Shown one piece after another: positions 10,295 to 50,065 of a stretch of DNA of 64,000 nucleotides. Under the pieces are notes generated by a model, which saw nothing but the letters and a program-made list of their open reading frames with translations, ran no database searches and was not told the origin of the DNA. The stretch comes from Candidatus Bathyarchaeia archaeon (GTDB lineage Archaea; Thermoproteota; Bathyarchaeia; Bathyarchaeales; Bathycorpusculaceae). The first letter of the stretch is position 1. Each line of letters begins with the position of its first letter. Both the position numbers and the translations under genes were made by a program. The stretch is from positions 834,490 through 898,489 of the forward strand of contig JAVZEV010000001.1 of the NCBI GenBank assembly GCA_038873195.1. The letters run 5' to 3'.

Positions 10295-10679
10295 ATCCCA
10301 AAAACATCCGACAAAAATAGGTTGCGAAGAGACAAGAAAGAAAAAGGTCAGGAAGATTATTGCCCTGGTGTAAAGGGGACCTTTGTCAGTTTCTTTTTTC
10401 GTTGTAGGGTAGTACACATTGCCCATTATGCCGTAGTAAACACGTTGAAGTCAGAATTAGCTTGTTATATCAACCGAGAAATTTAAATTATTAGACGATT
10501 TTGCAAATGATAGATTTAATGGGCAAGCGAATTTTTGTTCTATAATAAGTTTACAGAAACCTTTTATGCCATAGATAACCTAATACTTCATTTACAGACA
10601 TTTTCAGTTTAGTCTGAACCATCGTTTGGATTATTCTGAAACTGTTTGAATAGTAAAAAAAGGGAAAGGAGAAGGAAAA
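10295..10679. other. 385-base spacer
   Basis: No gene seen. A T-rich stretch near 10388-10399 (TTTCTTTTTT) could end transcription from the alba operon. A TATA-like AAATTTAAATTATT lies at about 10479-10492, too far upstream of the next start (10680) to be its obvious promoter. AAAGGAGAAGG just before 10680 is the ribosome-binding site of the next gene. Confidence 0.4.
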
Positions 10680-12563
10680 ATGCAGAAAATAACTGGAAAA
10701 ATAGTAGCGACTATGCTGCTTTGTTTCATGTTGACCATGCCGATAATCAGTAACATAAACGTACACGGACAAGAACCAGCAACACTTCGTGTTGACCCAC
10801 CAGAACAAGAAATTCCAGATGAACCGTTTTTCGATGTATTTGTTTGGGTAGATAGCTTTTTCGACGTTTATATGGACGGAATAATTTTGACCTACGACAC
10901 TTCAATTATTGACGCAGTAGATGTTGAAGCGGTTCCCCCCTTTTCGACTACAAACAAGATAATCGATGATGCGAACGGTTACATGCAAATAGAAAGCGTA
11001 GCTGAACCTCCCATTCATGGTTCCATACCGCTAGCACATTTCACATTCCGCTGTACTGGCGGAGGAATAAGCGACTTAACCATAGCACAATACTATTTAT
11101 TCGACCCATACCTAAACCCCATTCCAGTTAATAAAATTATAAATGGACGCGTTACACAAACCAGCTGGTACTTTAAACCACCATACCCCGATTACGCACC
11201 AAGCGGCGTTCCAGACTTCGACCAAAAACAATGGGGCACGCAAATGTGGATAAACCCGTTCCCACCAGTCGGCACATGGAGCTACTGTGGACCAGTAGCA
11301 ATAGCAAACTCATTATGGTGGCTTGACTCAGAACACGAACCAAACCCAATACCCCCACCGATAATCAATGACAATTTCCCATTAGTCCAAAGTTACGCAC
11401 CTGGAGTTTGGGACGACCATGACCCGCAAAACGTTCCACCCTTCGTCGAAGACCTTGCTTTTCTTATGGACACTAACGGTCAAAGATTCGGTCATCAACA
11501 TTGCGGCACGGAAGTGCATGAGATGACTATGGGGCTCAACGAATACATATCACGCCAAGGACTCGACTGGAAATTCTACGTGCACTTGCAGAAAGCTCCA
11601 GGCTTCCTCTGGATAGGAGAAGAAATCAAAAAGTGCCAAGACGTAGTACTGCTTCTCGGATTCTGGCAGTTTAATCCGTACATACAACAGTGGGTGCGTG
11701 TCGGCGGACACTACGTGACATGCGCAGGCGTTGACTCCGCAAATTGGAAGCTTGCAATAAGCGACCCATACATAGACGCTACGGAAATGGGACTTTCACA
11801 AGGAAGAGTATTGCCACCACCTCCACATCCACACACAGGAATACCCGAAACACTCCACAACGACGCACTATACGTTTCGCACGATTTCTATCCAATAGGA
11901 CCATCACCAAGCCCAGGCGGACCCTTCGGATTCTATGACTATCCAGCAGAATATATTATCGACAACTTCGGCTCATGTCAAAACACTCCAGACGAATTCC
12001 TTGAATTCGACGGCGAATACTTGCCTGGTGAACAACTCTTCACAGAGATAGAATATGCAGTTGTAACCTCATGCAAAACAGGAATCGTCGCCGCAGGCTC
12101 AGAAGACACGAACCTCTATGTCTGGGACTTCTTCGGTGCATTACAATGGCAACAACAGCTTGGAAAACCAGTAATATCAGTTGCGATGGACAACAACGGA
12201 ACATTTGTAGCTGCAGGAACAAGAACTTCCAGCGGAGTAGGCGACCTATGGCTGTTTGACGCTCTCGGCAATCTTCAATGGGTAAAATCAAACCTTAACG
12301 TGTCCACGAGCTATAATGGCGGCTGGGCGGGAACAGAATCCAAATCAGTCGACGTAAAATACAACGCCTATAGCGGCCTAGTCGTAGTAGCGGCCGCAAC
12401 AGATCAAGGTTTGTACTTGTTCGACCAGAATGGAAACCAAATATGGCAATTCTACCACCAAATAAGCGAAACATTAGTACGAATCTCACAAGATGGAAAC
12501 TACATAATATGCCTAGGAAACATCGACGGACAAGTGCATTACTTCTCGCACATGCGCAACTGA
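10680..12563 (+). CDS. Secreted cohesin/C39-like peptidase/beta-propeller protein, 5' part before in-frame TGA
   Basis: Signal peptide (residues 1-31, ending NVHGQE), then a cohesin-like beta domain (about 35-160). A papain-fold C39-like peptidase region follows, with Cys in YCGPVAIANSLWWLD, His in GGHYVTCAGVD and Asp in AISDPYID. The start of a WD/PQQ-like beta-propeller comes next (repeats such as AAGSEDTNLYVWDFFGALQW). It ends at TGA 12561-12563, but the same frame continues open for 410 more codons. The residue at the stop sits in RN-stop-IPGW, where Trp (TGG) would fit. Most likely one protein of about 1,037 residues. ATG follows AAAGGAGAAGG. Confidence 0.8.
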   Translation: MQKITGKIVATMLLCFMLTMPIISNINVHGQEPATLRVDPPEQEIPDEPFFDVFVWVDSFFDVYMDGIILTYDTSIIDAVDVEAVPPFSTTNKIIDDANGYMQIESVAEPPIHGSIPLAHFTFRCTGGGISDLTIAQYYLFDPYLNPIPVNKIINGRVTQTSWYFKPPYPDYAPSGVPDFDQKQWGTQMWINPFPPVGTWSYCGPVAIANSLWWLDSEHEPNPIPPPIINDNFPLVQSYAPGVWDDHDPQNVPPFVEDLAFLMDTNGQRFGHQHCGTEVHEMTMGLNEYISRQGLDWKFYVHLQKAPGFLWIGEEIKKCQDVVLLLGFWQFNPYIQQWVRVGGHYVTCAGVDSANWKLAISDPYIDATEMGLSQGRVLPPPPHPHTGIPETLHNDALYVSHDFYPIGPSPSPGGPFGFYDYPAEYIIDNFGSCQNTPDEFLEFDGEYLPGEQLFTEIEYAVVTSCKTGIVAAGSEDTNLYVWDFFGALQWQQQLGKPVISVAMDNNGTFVAAGTRTSSGVGDLWLFDALGNLQWVKSNLNVSTSYNGGWAGTESKSVDVKYNAYSGLVVVAAATDQGLYLFDQNGNQIWQFYHQISETLVRISQDGNYIICLGNIDGQVHYFSHMRN

Positions 12564-12614
12564 ATACCAGGATGGCAAGCTTCAGACGGCCTTCCTGTTT
12601 GGGAGTCCCCTGAC

Positions 12615-13793
12615 GTGCATGCTTTCTGGGCAGCCATCTCTGGAGACGGCAGCTACATAACCTATACTGGCGGATCATGGCCAGCACCTAACCAACTCAG
12701 CTTAATTAAAATGAAAACAACACCGCCCCTTCAAGTTTGGCAAGCCAACCTTCCACAATCAGCATTCTGGAGAGTTGACATGCCATGCCACGGAAAAAGC
12801 ATAGTAGTAGTTAACGACGACCCAAGCGATTCAGTCGGCGCCCTCGCCATCTATTGGAATGACGGCGGCAACGGCTGGGACGCCGGAGACTCAATACCAG
12901 TATGGACTTATTGGCCAGACAAGGACATAGGAAGCGCACAAAACCCCTTGGCAGACTTCTACACAGTAGCAATCTCAGAAAGCGGCAACTACATAGCCAC
13001 AGGCGGCACACCACACAACACCTACCTCCTAAAAAACGACGCAACCATTCAACAAAAAATCGGCATAATGCCAGGCTCGATTCAGTCAGTGGATCTTACA
13101 CTTTCCGGAAAATACGGAGTTGCAGGAGATAACACAGGCAACGTCTGGTTCTTTGACAAGGATACTGGATTTAAGTGGAGTTGGATGACCGGTGGAGCAA
13201 TTCATTCCGTAGCTATTTCTAAGGTATACCCATGCATGTTTCCATACCCAGACCATGATGTGGCAGTCACCAGCATAAAGCCAAACAAAACCATTGTAGG
13301 ACAAGGATACAACGCAAACATTAGCATAACCGTAACGAACGAAGGCGATTTCCAAGAAACCTTTGAAGTAACACTTTGCACAAATTCAACAGTTATCGGA
13401 ACTCAAACAGTTAACAACCTAGCCGCAGGAATGTCAATCATTCTGAACTTCTCTTGGAACACCAACAGCTACGAAAAAGGAATCTACACAGTATGGGCTT
13501 CCAGTTCGGTTGTACCCGACGAAATAGACGTATACGACAACCAACTCGTAGATAGTACTATAAAAGTGACTATTCCTGGCGATGTTGATGGTGATTTTAA
13601 AGTGAAGATGGATGATATAGTGCTTATTGTTGGTGCTTTCGGGTCAACGCTTAGAGCAGACGGATGGTACTGGCACACGCCACCCTGCATACTATGTCCC
13701 CATAATCCAAACTACGACGTAGACGGAAACAGCAAAGTAGACATGGGCGACATAGTCATAACATGCGGCAACTTCGGAAAAACCTACCCATAA
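12615..13793 (+). CDS. 3' part of the cohesin/beta-propeller/dockerin protein after the in-frame TGA
   Basis: In frame with the preceding gene (1,935 bases after its ATG, an exact multiple of 3). The continuous frame starts right after the TGA at 12564; GTG at 12615 is only the first possible start and has no signal peptide or good ribosome-binding site. It holds the rest of the beta-propeller, a CARDB-like domain (DVAVTSIKPNKTIVGQG...ITVTNEG) and a C-terminal type I dockerin with two calcium loops, DVDGDFKVKMDD and DVDGNSKVDMGD, ending NFGKTYP. On its own it would not be exported. Confidence 0.75.
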   Translation: MHAFWAAISGDGSYITYTGGSWPAPNQLSLIKMKTTPPLQVWQANLPQSAFWRVDMPCHGKSIVVVNDDPSDSVGALAIYWNDGGNGWDAGDSIPVWTYWPDKDIGSAQNPLADFYTVAISESGNYIATGGTPHNTYLLKNDATIQQKIGIMPGSIQSVDLTLSGKYGVAGDNTGNVWFFDKDTGFKWSWMTGGAIHSVAISKVYPCMFPYPDHDVAVTSIKPNKTIVGQGYNANISITVTNEGDFQETFEVTLCTNSTVIGTQTVNNLAAGMSIILNFSWNTNSYEKGIYTVWASSSVVPDEIDVYDNQLVDSTIKVTIPGDVDGDFKVKMDDIVLIVGAFGSTLRADGWYWHTPPCILCPHNPNYDVDGNSKVDMGDIVITCGNFGKTYP

Positions 13794-13794
13794 C

Positions 13795-13812
13795 CCTTTT
13801 TTCTTTTTAATT
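13795..13812 (+). terminator. T-rich terminator
   Basis: CCCTTTTTTCTTTTTAATTT right after the dockerin stop, followed by an AT-rich inverted repeat (TTTAAT/ATTAAA). T-tracts are the usual archaeal termination signal. Confidence 0.5.
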
Positions 13813-13878
13813 TAATATCGAATTAAATAATACACTTTTAAGGATCGAATACCAAACCAAAACTTGACATTAGAAGGT

Positions 13879-14397
13879 TTAGAGAAATTTTCGTTTAATA
13901 TAAACAGATAAAAAGAAAAGTGCTGTGCCTATTTCACAAAAAAGAATAGCATAATCTGCATACACATGTGCCACTTTTAATTCAAGTTTATAATGAGGGT
14001 TGGCGTTTGGTGTTACCCCAGCGGGTGGAGCAACGGAGCGAGGATCGAGAAATGTTCCAGCCAAATCATTAGATCGATAATATGCATACCCCCCTTGCGC
14101 TGTTTCAATCCACTCGTATTCAACGTTAACAAGGGTGTAGGTGATTATCGCTAGTGTTACAAAAAGTAAAGAGGCACATAAGATTGTGGCGAAGGCTTTT
14201 TCTTGAAAAGAACTCTTTCGAGAGATCTCAAAATGTAATGTAACAAAAATCGTCAGAAAAACGGCTCCTAAACTCAGAAAGGTAGTAGCTTCCACAGAAA
14301 AACCTAACGGTTTCAACAATGCTATGCCAAAAAATGTAAAGGTTGACCCAGTAAACGCAAATATTTTCGGAGCATGAACGCTTAATACGCTAAACAA
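13879..14397 (-). CDS. Membrane protein of unknown function
   Basis: 172 residues with about four hydrophobic segments (roughly 12-32, 38-56, 66-90 and 148-165). An extracytoplasmic stretch between the last two contains EWIETAQGGYAYYRSNDLAGTFLDPRSVAPPAG. I do not recognise a family. ATG at 14397. It is convergent with the dockerin gene and lies downstream of tRNA-Gly on the same strand. Confidence 0.65.
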   Translation of the reverse strand: MFSVLSVHAPKIFAFTGSTFTFFGIALLKPLGFSVEATTFLSLGAVFLTIFVTLHFEISRKSSFQEKAFATILCASLLFVTLAIITYTLVNVEYEWIETAQGGYAYYRSNDLAGTFLDPRSVAPPAGVTPNANPHYKLELKVAHVYADYAILFCEIGTALFFLSVYIKRKFL

Positions 14398-14845: not shown

Positions 14846-15625
14846 TTATGGGTAGGTTTTTCCAAAGTTCATTAATATGACAACTATATCTGCCATTGTT
14901 ATTCTGCCATTCAGGTCCAAATCCACGTGTGGATTCCATCTTAGGTGAGTTGGATATGAGCCAAAAGCATCTACGACTGCCATGACGTCATCGAATTTTA
15001 TAACTCCATCATCATTGATGTCGGGTATAGGTGAGAAATTAAGTATACAGAGATATGCAGACGTTGTGAAGACCGGCTTTTGTCCAAGTTCCAAGACGAC
15101 GAAAGTTTCTTGCTGTACGAACGTTATTTCTGTGCACAATACTTCATCGCTTGGAAGTTGTTGTATTGTAAAGTTGACTTGACATAACACTCCTTGATTT
15201 GTGACATCTACAGGTGTTTCTGGTAATAATGTTGCATTCACTTTTAAGTATCCAGTATCATCTACAACATCACTTGAAGCGGAAGTTATTAATGTGGCTC
15301 CGTCAATAGCAGAGGCAAAAACATTGCCGTCTGGTATCGAAACGTTTTGGAAGTTTACTATACTGTTGTTCCATGAAACAGAAATCTCCCATGCGACCAA
15401 TTTTTCAACGTGAGTTATAGAGAACACTGCTGTAAAAACACTGCCGATAGGGTATTCTGAAGCTTTCAGTATAAAGAAACTATCATTTGTTTCCGGGTTA
15501 AGCACTCTTATTGTCGCAACCTCACCTTCGGCTTTAACACTGACTCCGTTGCCTTTAAGTGCCAATACTAACATGCTCACTGACAACAACATTACCATTA
15601 TCTTGAAGGCCATTCTTGCAGACAT
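14846..15625 (-). CDS. Secreted cohesin-dockerin protein
   Basis: 259 residues: a signal peptide (1-31), a cohesin-like jelly-roll domain (about 35-170: VFTAVFSITHVEKLVAWEISVSW, VVDDTGYLKVNATLLP, VLCQVNFTIQ), and a C-terminal type I dockerin (about 198-259) with calcium loops DINDDGVIKFDD and DLDLNGRITMAD. It ends NFGKTYP, exactly as the larger protein at 12615-13793. Cohesins bind dockerins in cellulosomes; archaeal proteins carrying both are known, but their role is not. ATG is preceded by AGGGAG. Probably acts outside the cell. Confidence 0.82.
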   Translation of the reverse strand: MSARMAFKIMVMLLSVSMLVLALKGNGVSVKAEGEVATIRVLNPETNDSFFILKASEYPIGSVFTAVFSITHVEKLVAWEISVSWNNSIVNFQNVSIPDGNVFASAIDGATLITSASSDVVDDTGYLKVNATLLPETPVDVTNQGVLCQVNFTIQQLPSDEVLCTEITFVQQETFVVLELGQKPVFTTSAYLCILNFSPIPDINDDGVIKFDDVMAVVDAFGSYPTHLRWNPHVDLDLNGRITMADIVVILMNFGKTYP

Positions 15626-31040: not shown

Positions 31041-32446
31041 TTTTTGCGCCTCAACTCCTCCATGTGTTTTACGCTTTTTTCTATATGCTGCGGCGACGCT
31101 ATGTCTGTTCTGTGCCAGAGCGCTCCGCCTTTCACGGCTTTAACGCCTTCCAGAGATAGCTGCCGTGCTTCGCTGATGTCTTCGCCTATGCCGACAACGC
31201 CTACGGCTCGGGATTTAAGCGCGAAAGTTCCGCCGTCACGCAGTTCCATCGCTGCCGGATAAACACGAACTCTATCATGGTATTTTTTGGTCAGCGCGTA
31301 TGCTTTTGTCAAGTCAACAGGCGAGCCAATTTCCTTTTTGTCTACCAGATTTGGGAATACATCCATGTAGCCGCCGTAGTTTGGCGGAACCTTATAAGTT
31401 AAAACAGTCGCCGTCTTTTCCAGTTCTACATGTGTCAGGTTGCCTTCCAAAATTTTGAAACAAACATCCACAAAATCATCCTTCAAAATTGGCAGAATAT
31501 TAATTATTTCTGGGTCGCCGGGTCGACTGTTATTCTCAAGAATTTTAGGCTCTTTACCGGTGTGCATGAAAGCCACGTAGAAAGGAACACCCCATAAGCC
31601 AGTGTTATCTTTTCTTTTCCATTTTTCGAAGATTCTGTTAACGATTTCTATTTCTTTGGCTCTATCCGTTTTTGTTATGAAAGGCAAAACATCGTCAACA
31701 TCTTTGTAGGAGCCCATTCCTCCAGTGTTTGGTCCCTTGTCGTCGTCAAAGGCGCGTTTGTAGTCTCTTGTTTCTGGTAAGGGAACGAGGTGTTTGCCGT
31801 CGCAGAAAGCTTGAAAGCTTGATTCTTCGCCTTCGATTTTTTCTTCTATGATGACTGCGCCGTGTTGGAAATTGGCTAGAAAATGTTCCATGAGTTGTTC
31901 TCGAGTTGTGAAGTGGTCGCCCCACACGCCGACGCCTTTTCCCGCTGCGGGCTGGTCTGGCTTCACAACTGCCATATTGTTTAGTTCGTCAAGCCATTTG
32001 TAAACTGCCTTTTTCACTTCTTCTTGGTTTTTGTAGTCTTTTGGGTGGAAGATTTTGTAGCGAGGATTCGCGGTTGGCACGATTTCTTCGAAGAGCATGC
32101 GTTGCTGCACTTTGCTTGCTTCTATAGCGTAGTCTTTTGTTGGGCAAATCATGGGTATTCCAGCGCGCTTTTCCACGAGGTCGCGGACGCCTTCGATTAT
32201 GGGTTTTTCTGGACCAACAATGCCAAAGTCGATTTTGTCTTTGTTGTGTTCTGCGAATTTGCAGATTTCCTCAACATTCAAGTCTGGTATGACCACGATT
32301 TCTGTAGCGTTCTTCGCATTGAAGGGGTTTCGTTGTTTATCTGCAATGTAAAGGTGCACATTGTAGTTTTGGCTGCGCGCGAAAGCATCAACCATGGCGA
32401 CTTCTCTTGCGCCATACGATACTACGAGTATTCCTACTTTTTCCAT
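31037..32446 (-). CDS. purD: Phosphoribosylamine-glycine ligase (GAR synthetase)
   Basis: Second step of purine synthesis. 469 residues with the PurD N-domain (VSYGAREVAMVDAF), an ATP-grasp domain (VVKPDQPAAGKGVGVW, EEKIEGEESSFQAF, DDDKGPNTGGMGSY) and the LENNSRPGDPEIINIL metal-binding block. The variant loop VGPEKPIIEGV replaces the usual VGPExPL. Starts 61 bases after purF and overlaps the HAD gene by 4. Confidence 0.93.
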   Translation of the reverse strand: MEKVGILVVSYGAREVAMVDAFARSQNYNVHLYIADKQRNPFNAKNATEIVVIPDLNVEEICKFAEHNKDKIDFGIVGPEKPIIEGVRDLVEKRAGIPMICPTKDYAIEASKVQQRMLFEEIVPTANPRYKIFHPKDYKNQEEVKKAVYKWLDELNNMAVVKPDQPAAGKGVGVWGDHFTTREQLMEHFLANFQHGAVIIEEKIEGEESSFQAFCDGKHLVPLPETRDYKRAFDDDKGPNTGGMGSYKDVDDVLPFITKTDRAKEIEIVNRIFEKWKRKDNTGLWGVPFYVAFMHTGKEPKILENNSRPGDPEIINILPILKDDFVDVCFKILEGNLTHVELEKTATVLTYKVPPNYGGYMDVFPNLVDKKEIGSPVDLTKAYALTKKYHDRVRVYPAAMELRDGGTFALKSRAVGVVGIGEDISEARQLSLEGVKAVKGGALWHRTDIASPQHIEKSVKHMEELRRKK

Positions 32447-49971: not shown

Positions 49972-50065
49972 AGCGGGGTGGGGTAGCCAGGATTAACCCG
50001 CTGGGCTCATAAGCTTAAGCTGAAAGACCCAGAGATCGGTTGTTCAAATCAACCCCCCGCTACCA
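49972..50065 (+). tRNA. Initiator tRNA-Met(CAU), with intron and encoded CCA
   Basis: Acceptor AGCGGGG/CCCCGCT has the A1-U72 pair of archaeal initiators; anticodon stem CTGGG/CCCAG carries the three G-C pairs. Anticodon CAT in CTCATAA, T arm GGTTG/CAACC-like with TTCAAAT, and CCA encoded at 50063-50065. A 15-base intron follows position 37. Confidence 0.93.
50012..50026 (+). other. Canonical tRNA-Met intron (15 nt)
   Basis: AGCTTAAGCTGAAAG lies between positions 37 and 38. Exon bases TCA can pair with intron TGA, leaving bulges TAA and AGA, cut after their second base. Removing it restores a seven-base anticodon loop. Confidence 0.8.

Follow-up and report, generated by a model that had tools for sequence, protein, structure and literature searches.

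In a stretch of 64,000 nucleotides from a Candidatus Bathyarchaeia archaeon (hereafter, the window), the gene of a large secreted modular protein is divided by an in-frame TGA, which probably arose when a single base of a conserved glycine codon was recently mutated. The evidence comes from the orthologues of the gene, from the selection acting on its two halves and from the use of UGA in the rest of the genome.

The Interrupted Frame and Its Modules

The frame 10680–13793 on the forward strand translates into 1037 residues with one internal stop, the TGA at codon 628 of 1038, and the rest of the frame is open up to the TAA at 13791–13793 (Table 1). A ribosome-binding site, GGAG (10668–10671), lies eight bases before the start at 10680. 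As the first-pass annotation had proposed, a single frame runs across the TGA, and this was confirmed by translation and by the continuous alignment of the relatives. The full-length gene is in single copy in its own genome (1.63 Mb, two contigs), in which 13 more partial matches to the CARDB/dockerin end were found, none of them containing a stop.

Table 1. Position and content of the interrupted gene, of its modules and of the neighbouring gene in the window.
Feature	Position	Strand	Description
5' part	10680–12563	+	627-aa product ending at the in-frame TGA; signal-peptide-like N terminus (residues 1–31), N-terminal modules, protease-like module, first propeller half
Protease-like module	11160–11999	+	Residues 161–440; invariant Cys203, His344, Asp362 (alignment columns)
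Beta-propeller, WD type	12042–13229	+	Residues 455–850; interrupted about half-way by the TGA
In-frame TGA stop	12561–12563	+	Codon 628; glycine column in relatives
3' part	12564–13793	+	409 codons; remaining propeller, CARDB, dockerin-like C terminus
CARDB	13287–13493	+	PF07705, E 8.5e-07, above the curated cut-off
Dockerin-like C terminus	13575–13790	+	Two calcium-loop-like repeats
Neighbouring secreted dockerin-type protein gene	14846–15625	-	Intact in the window

The claim that the propeller continues past the TGA is borne out by WD-repeat protein profiles, which match at residues 454–545, 469–619 and 745–854, i.e., on both sides of the stop; propeller matches were also obtained at residues 461–623 of the 5' part. 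The other domains named in the first-pass annotation fared unequally. The dockerin-like C terminus gave a weak profile match to the cellulosomal family-48 dockerin chain 2y3n (E 0.011) and none that passed a Pfam cut-off, and CARDB, which was not in the original label, was clearly recognised; by contrast, the N-terminal region matched no family model for cohesin, with Pfam searched at E up to 1, and the proposed peptidase corresponds to no Pfam model. Since neither Pfam nor NCBIfam models matched the protease-like module, the term 'peptidase' is inferred from its motif only. Relatives of this module were retrieved from MAGs of Zixiibacteriota, Chloroflexi, Thermoplasmatota and Methanophagales by a profile scan of contigs with an alignment as query, while a single-protein query gave none, and on these results the module appears to belong to an undescribed, widely spread family. 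A structure prediction from a two-sequence alignment had a mean pLDDT of 27 and was left out of the domain assignment.

Glycine Occupies the Site of the TGA in the Orthologues

Full-length and intact orthologues, aligning through the site without a stop, were identified in a sister genome of the same genus (G001, 79% identical) and in a genome of the same family (G035, 66% identical). The column of the TGA is occupied by GGA in the former and by GGT in the latter, hence by glycine in both, and a glycine is found there also in a third, more distant relative (G003). The glycine codons of the orthologues are one or two bases away from TGA; GGA, which differs from it by one base, is also the commonest glycine codon of the interrupted gene (47 out of 93). 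The tryptophan (TGG) that the first-pass annotation had expected at this site is therefore ruled out by the glycine of the orthologues. The same annotation had considered that orthologues might truly end at this stop; instead, those of G001 and G035 run through it. Among the 163 genomes of the order, a strong match to the propeller version of the protein was found only in the genome of the window and in G001, G035 and G003, and a class-wide search of 257 genomes added nothing beyond weak matches.

Selection on the Two Halves of the Gene

The 3' part is conserved in the orthologues and is under purifying selection. Compared with the sister, both the segment preceding the stop (dN/dS 0.094/0.504) and the CARDB-dockerin part that follows the stop (0.075/0.534) have low ratios. 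The changes unique to the lineage of the window were 27 in the propeller after the stop, versus 41 in G001, and 4 in the CARDB-dockerin part, versus 5 in G001. Relaxed selection past the stop, which is expected only for an old lesion, was not found in these comparisons. Purifying selection and the lack of an excess of changes therefore indicate that the 3' half has been selected nearly since the two species parted. Judging from these rates, the stop would be either very recent, or absent or ineffective in the cells.

The propeller itself evolves far more rapidly than the modules that flank it. Its dN between the sisters is 0.43 past the stop, compared to 0.09 for the 5' part and 0.075 for CARDB-dockerin. 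At residues ~600–720, it resembles the propeller of G035 more than that of the same-genus G001, although G035 is the more distant of the two genomes. This pattern suggests domain exchange or diversifying change.

UGA Usage and Search for Recoding Elements

To follow the use of UGA on a larger scale, 700 kb of the genome of the window were compared with 610 kb of the sister genome, with a codon-position filter applied. Coding-like matches were obtained for 446 sister genes, corresponding to 145,440 aligned residues, and in this set no stop other than the TGA at 12561–12563 falls deep within a conserved gene; by our reading, the remaining stops listed are located either close to starts that had been extended too far or within short shadow frames. 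The further in-frame TGA codons at conserved Trp sites that the first-pass annotation had suggested looking for were thus not found deep inside any of the 446 genes. In the reverse comparison, TGA ends 128 of 455 genes (28%). UGA thus works as a normal stop here and, as no second deep stop is present among the 446 genes, it is not systematically recoded. A genome-wide reassignment of UGA (codes 4 and 25) was rejected on the same data, namely a common UGA stop and one deep in-frame TGA in the sampled stretches.

Selenocysteine was also ruled out. SepSecS, an enzyme of selenocysteine synthesis, is absent from the genome, and the same search does find it in M. jannaschii; the matches to tRNA-Sec remain below the cut-off and coincide with ordinary tRNAs; no SECIS, nor any other RNA family, exceeded the cut-off in the gene and its flanks (10400–14100); finally, the orthologues have Gly and not Cys at the site. 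No tRNA with a UCA anticodon is present among the 42 tRNA hits, a list that is incomplete, since the tRNAs for Trp, Tyr and His were not recovered. An odd tRNA reported by ARAGORN at 49972–50065 (+) turned out to be an intron-containing tRNA with a CAT anticodon (Met type), once introns were allowed.

A C following UGA makes a leaky stop context. Here, the base after the UGA is an A, and the RNA folding near the stop is unremarkable, with local z-scores from −1.6 to +0.8; neither a leaky context nor a stimulatory structure was found, and the stop is not conserved in the orthologues. No repeats that could sustain phase variation, by repeats or by inversion, were found near the gene.

Broken Genes in the Related Genomes

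Other breaks were observed in the related genomes. In G003, the corresponding frame is shifted ~9 codons upstream of the TGA column (L044 ~2755–2790; G003:C51, ~32254–32289). The site of this break has no evident slippery sequence and sits in a contig of ~5-fold coverage; a position so close to that of the TGA would occur by chance in ~2% of cases, according to a post hoc estimate.

In the sister genome, the counterpart of the neighbouring dockerin-type gene (14846–15625 in the window; L045:8978–9754, −) is interrupted in frame by a TAG that takes the place of a Trp codon; outside the TAG, its frame is open and 87% identical. Pyrrolysine was discarded as an explanation for this TAG, given that no PylB was found over the cut-off in G000, G001, G003 and G035. 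A second region of the sister (G001:C1 ~86041–86942, L127), which matches a 301-aa gene of the genome of the window, has a TAG at a Trp codon as well as a frameshift, and two matches to the dockerin end in other genomes also have a TAG inside. Dispensable, often-broken genes of surface proteins would explain the frameshift of G003 and the TAG of G001.

Discussion

The reading that we consider probable is that a single-base nonsense substitution hit the conserved glycine codon 628 and split the gene of a secreted modular protein. Translation would then stop at this codon, producing a secreted fragment of 627 aa with the N-terminal modules, the protease-like module and half of the propeller, which would be deprived of CARDB and of the dockerin-like end; the 3' part would not be produced as a secreted protein. 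Since no decay is seen in the 3' part, the mutation would be recent. We infer that the TGA is really present in the cells, and the truncated product is presumably non-functional, or partly functional at most. The finding of similar genes broken in the relatives, by the frameshift in G003 and, in G001, by the TAG of the adjacent gene, favours this explanation; against it, an undecayed 3' part is equally expected from an assembly error or from an effective suppression of the stop, and the list of tRNAs is incomplete. With regard to the four options listed in the first-pass annotation, sequencing error and recent nonsense mutation survive, read-through received no positive support and recoding is argued against by the results above.

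An appreciably less probable explanation, which nevertheless deserves attention, is that the TGA contains a wrong consensus base, or one contributed by a minor strain, and that the gene is intact in the cells. The genome is a draft in two contigs, 98.2% complete and with 2.2% contamination, probably a metagenome bin, and both the undecayed 3' half and the isolation of the event would be expected from a rare error in the consensus. On the other hand, almost no other broken genes were met in ~145,000 aligned residues, so that the consensus looks good, and the change is a base substitution rather than an indel, and does not lie in a homopolymer.

We regard as improbable that the UGA is leaky or suppressed at low level and that the protein is made in two forms, a major one without dockerin and a minor one tagged with it. 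The purifying selection on the 3' half would agree with it, as would the break of G003, only ~9 codons before the TGA column, and the TAG that the sister has in the adjacent dockerin gene; nonetheless, the two nearest orthologues do not have the stop, the base that follows is A rather than C, no significant RNA structure and no suppressor tRNA were seen, and the break of G003 is without an evident slippery site and falls on the contig of ~5-fold coverage. Even less credit can be given to the broader proposal that interrupted frames switch or dose secreted dockerin-type proteins in these archaea through low-level UGA suppression, with the breaks of G003 and G001 as parallel cases. If it were true, such switched or dosed reading would be an archaeal stop read-through beyond selenocysteine and pyrrolysine, the only ones demonstrated according to a review (PMC8211752).

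It is very improbable that the locus now consists of two functional genes. The earliest start-like codon of the 3' part, GTG 12615, would let the second gene re-initiate, and a GGAG is located ~9 bases upstream of it; however, this start and the cut fall within the propeller, the latter inside a blade, a protein made from the 3' part would lack a signal peptide, and the intact orthologue of G035 has GTT in place of the GTG. From our reading of the frame 12564–13793, the first-pass annotation was right in stating that the 3' half has neither a signal peptide nor a credible start of its own. Lastly, a UGA recoded or reassigned in this organism to selenocysteine, Trp or Gly can be practically dismissed: the frame does go on open past the stop, but the absence of SepSecS, the sub-threshold tRNA-Sec matches to ordinary tRNAs, the UGA that closes more than a quarter of the compared genes and interrupts no other conserved frame sampled, and the glycine of the orthologues, neither Cys nor Trp, all speak against it.

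Disrupted genes are common in archaea, and the demonstrated cases of recoding in this domain are limited to selenocysteine, pyrrolysine and −1 frameshifting (PMC8211752). The case described here resembles archaeal selenoproteins in having an in-frame UGA flanked by conserved sequence, and differs from them in that SepSecS, a tRNA-Sec over the cut-off and a SECIS are missing and the relatives have Gly, not Cys. A UGA at a glycine site formally fits code 25, used by Gracilibacteria and SR1 (UGA = Gly); unlike what is expected from this code and from code 4 (UGA = Trp), UGA ends 28% of the genes compared, no second UGA occurs inside a conserved gene of the sample and no UCA anticodon was found among the tRNA hits. 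The α-l-fucosidase gene fucA1 of Saccharolobus solfataricus, expressed by −1 programmed frameshifting (PMC8211752), is likewise a broken archaeal gene from which recoding could yield the full-length protein; in our gene, however, the interruption is an in-frame stop, with no frameshift and no slippery sequence. With the predicted archaeal pseudogenes (PMC8211752) it shares one lesion in a conserved frame that is intact in the relatives, even if the lesion is a substitution, whereas the emphasis of the review is on frameshifts in A/T-rich tracts, which in some cases are expressed. Automatic annotation will make two false proteins from the gene at 10680–13793, and the case invites caution: an in-frame stop in a conserved archaeal frame looked like recoding, but a single lesion is indicated by the orthologues, by the stop usage and by the comparison of the genomes.
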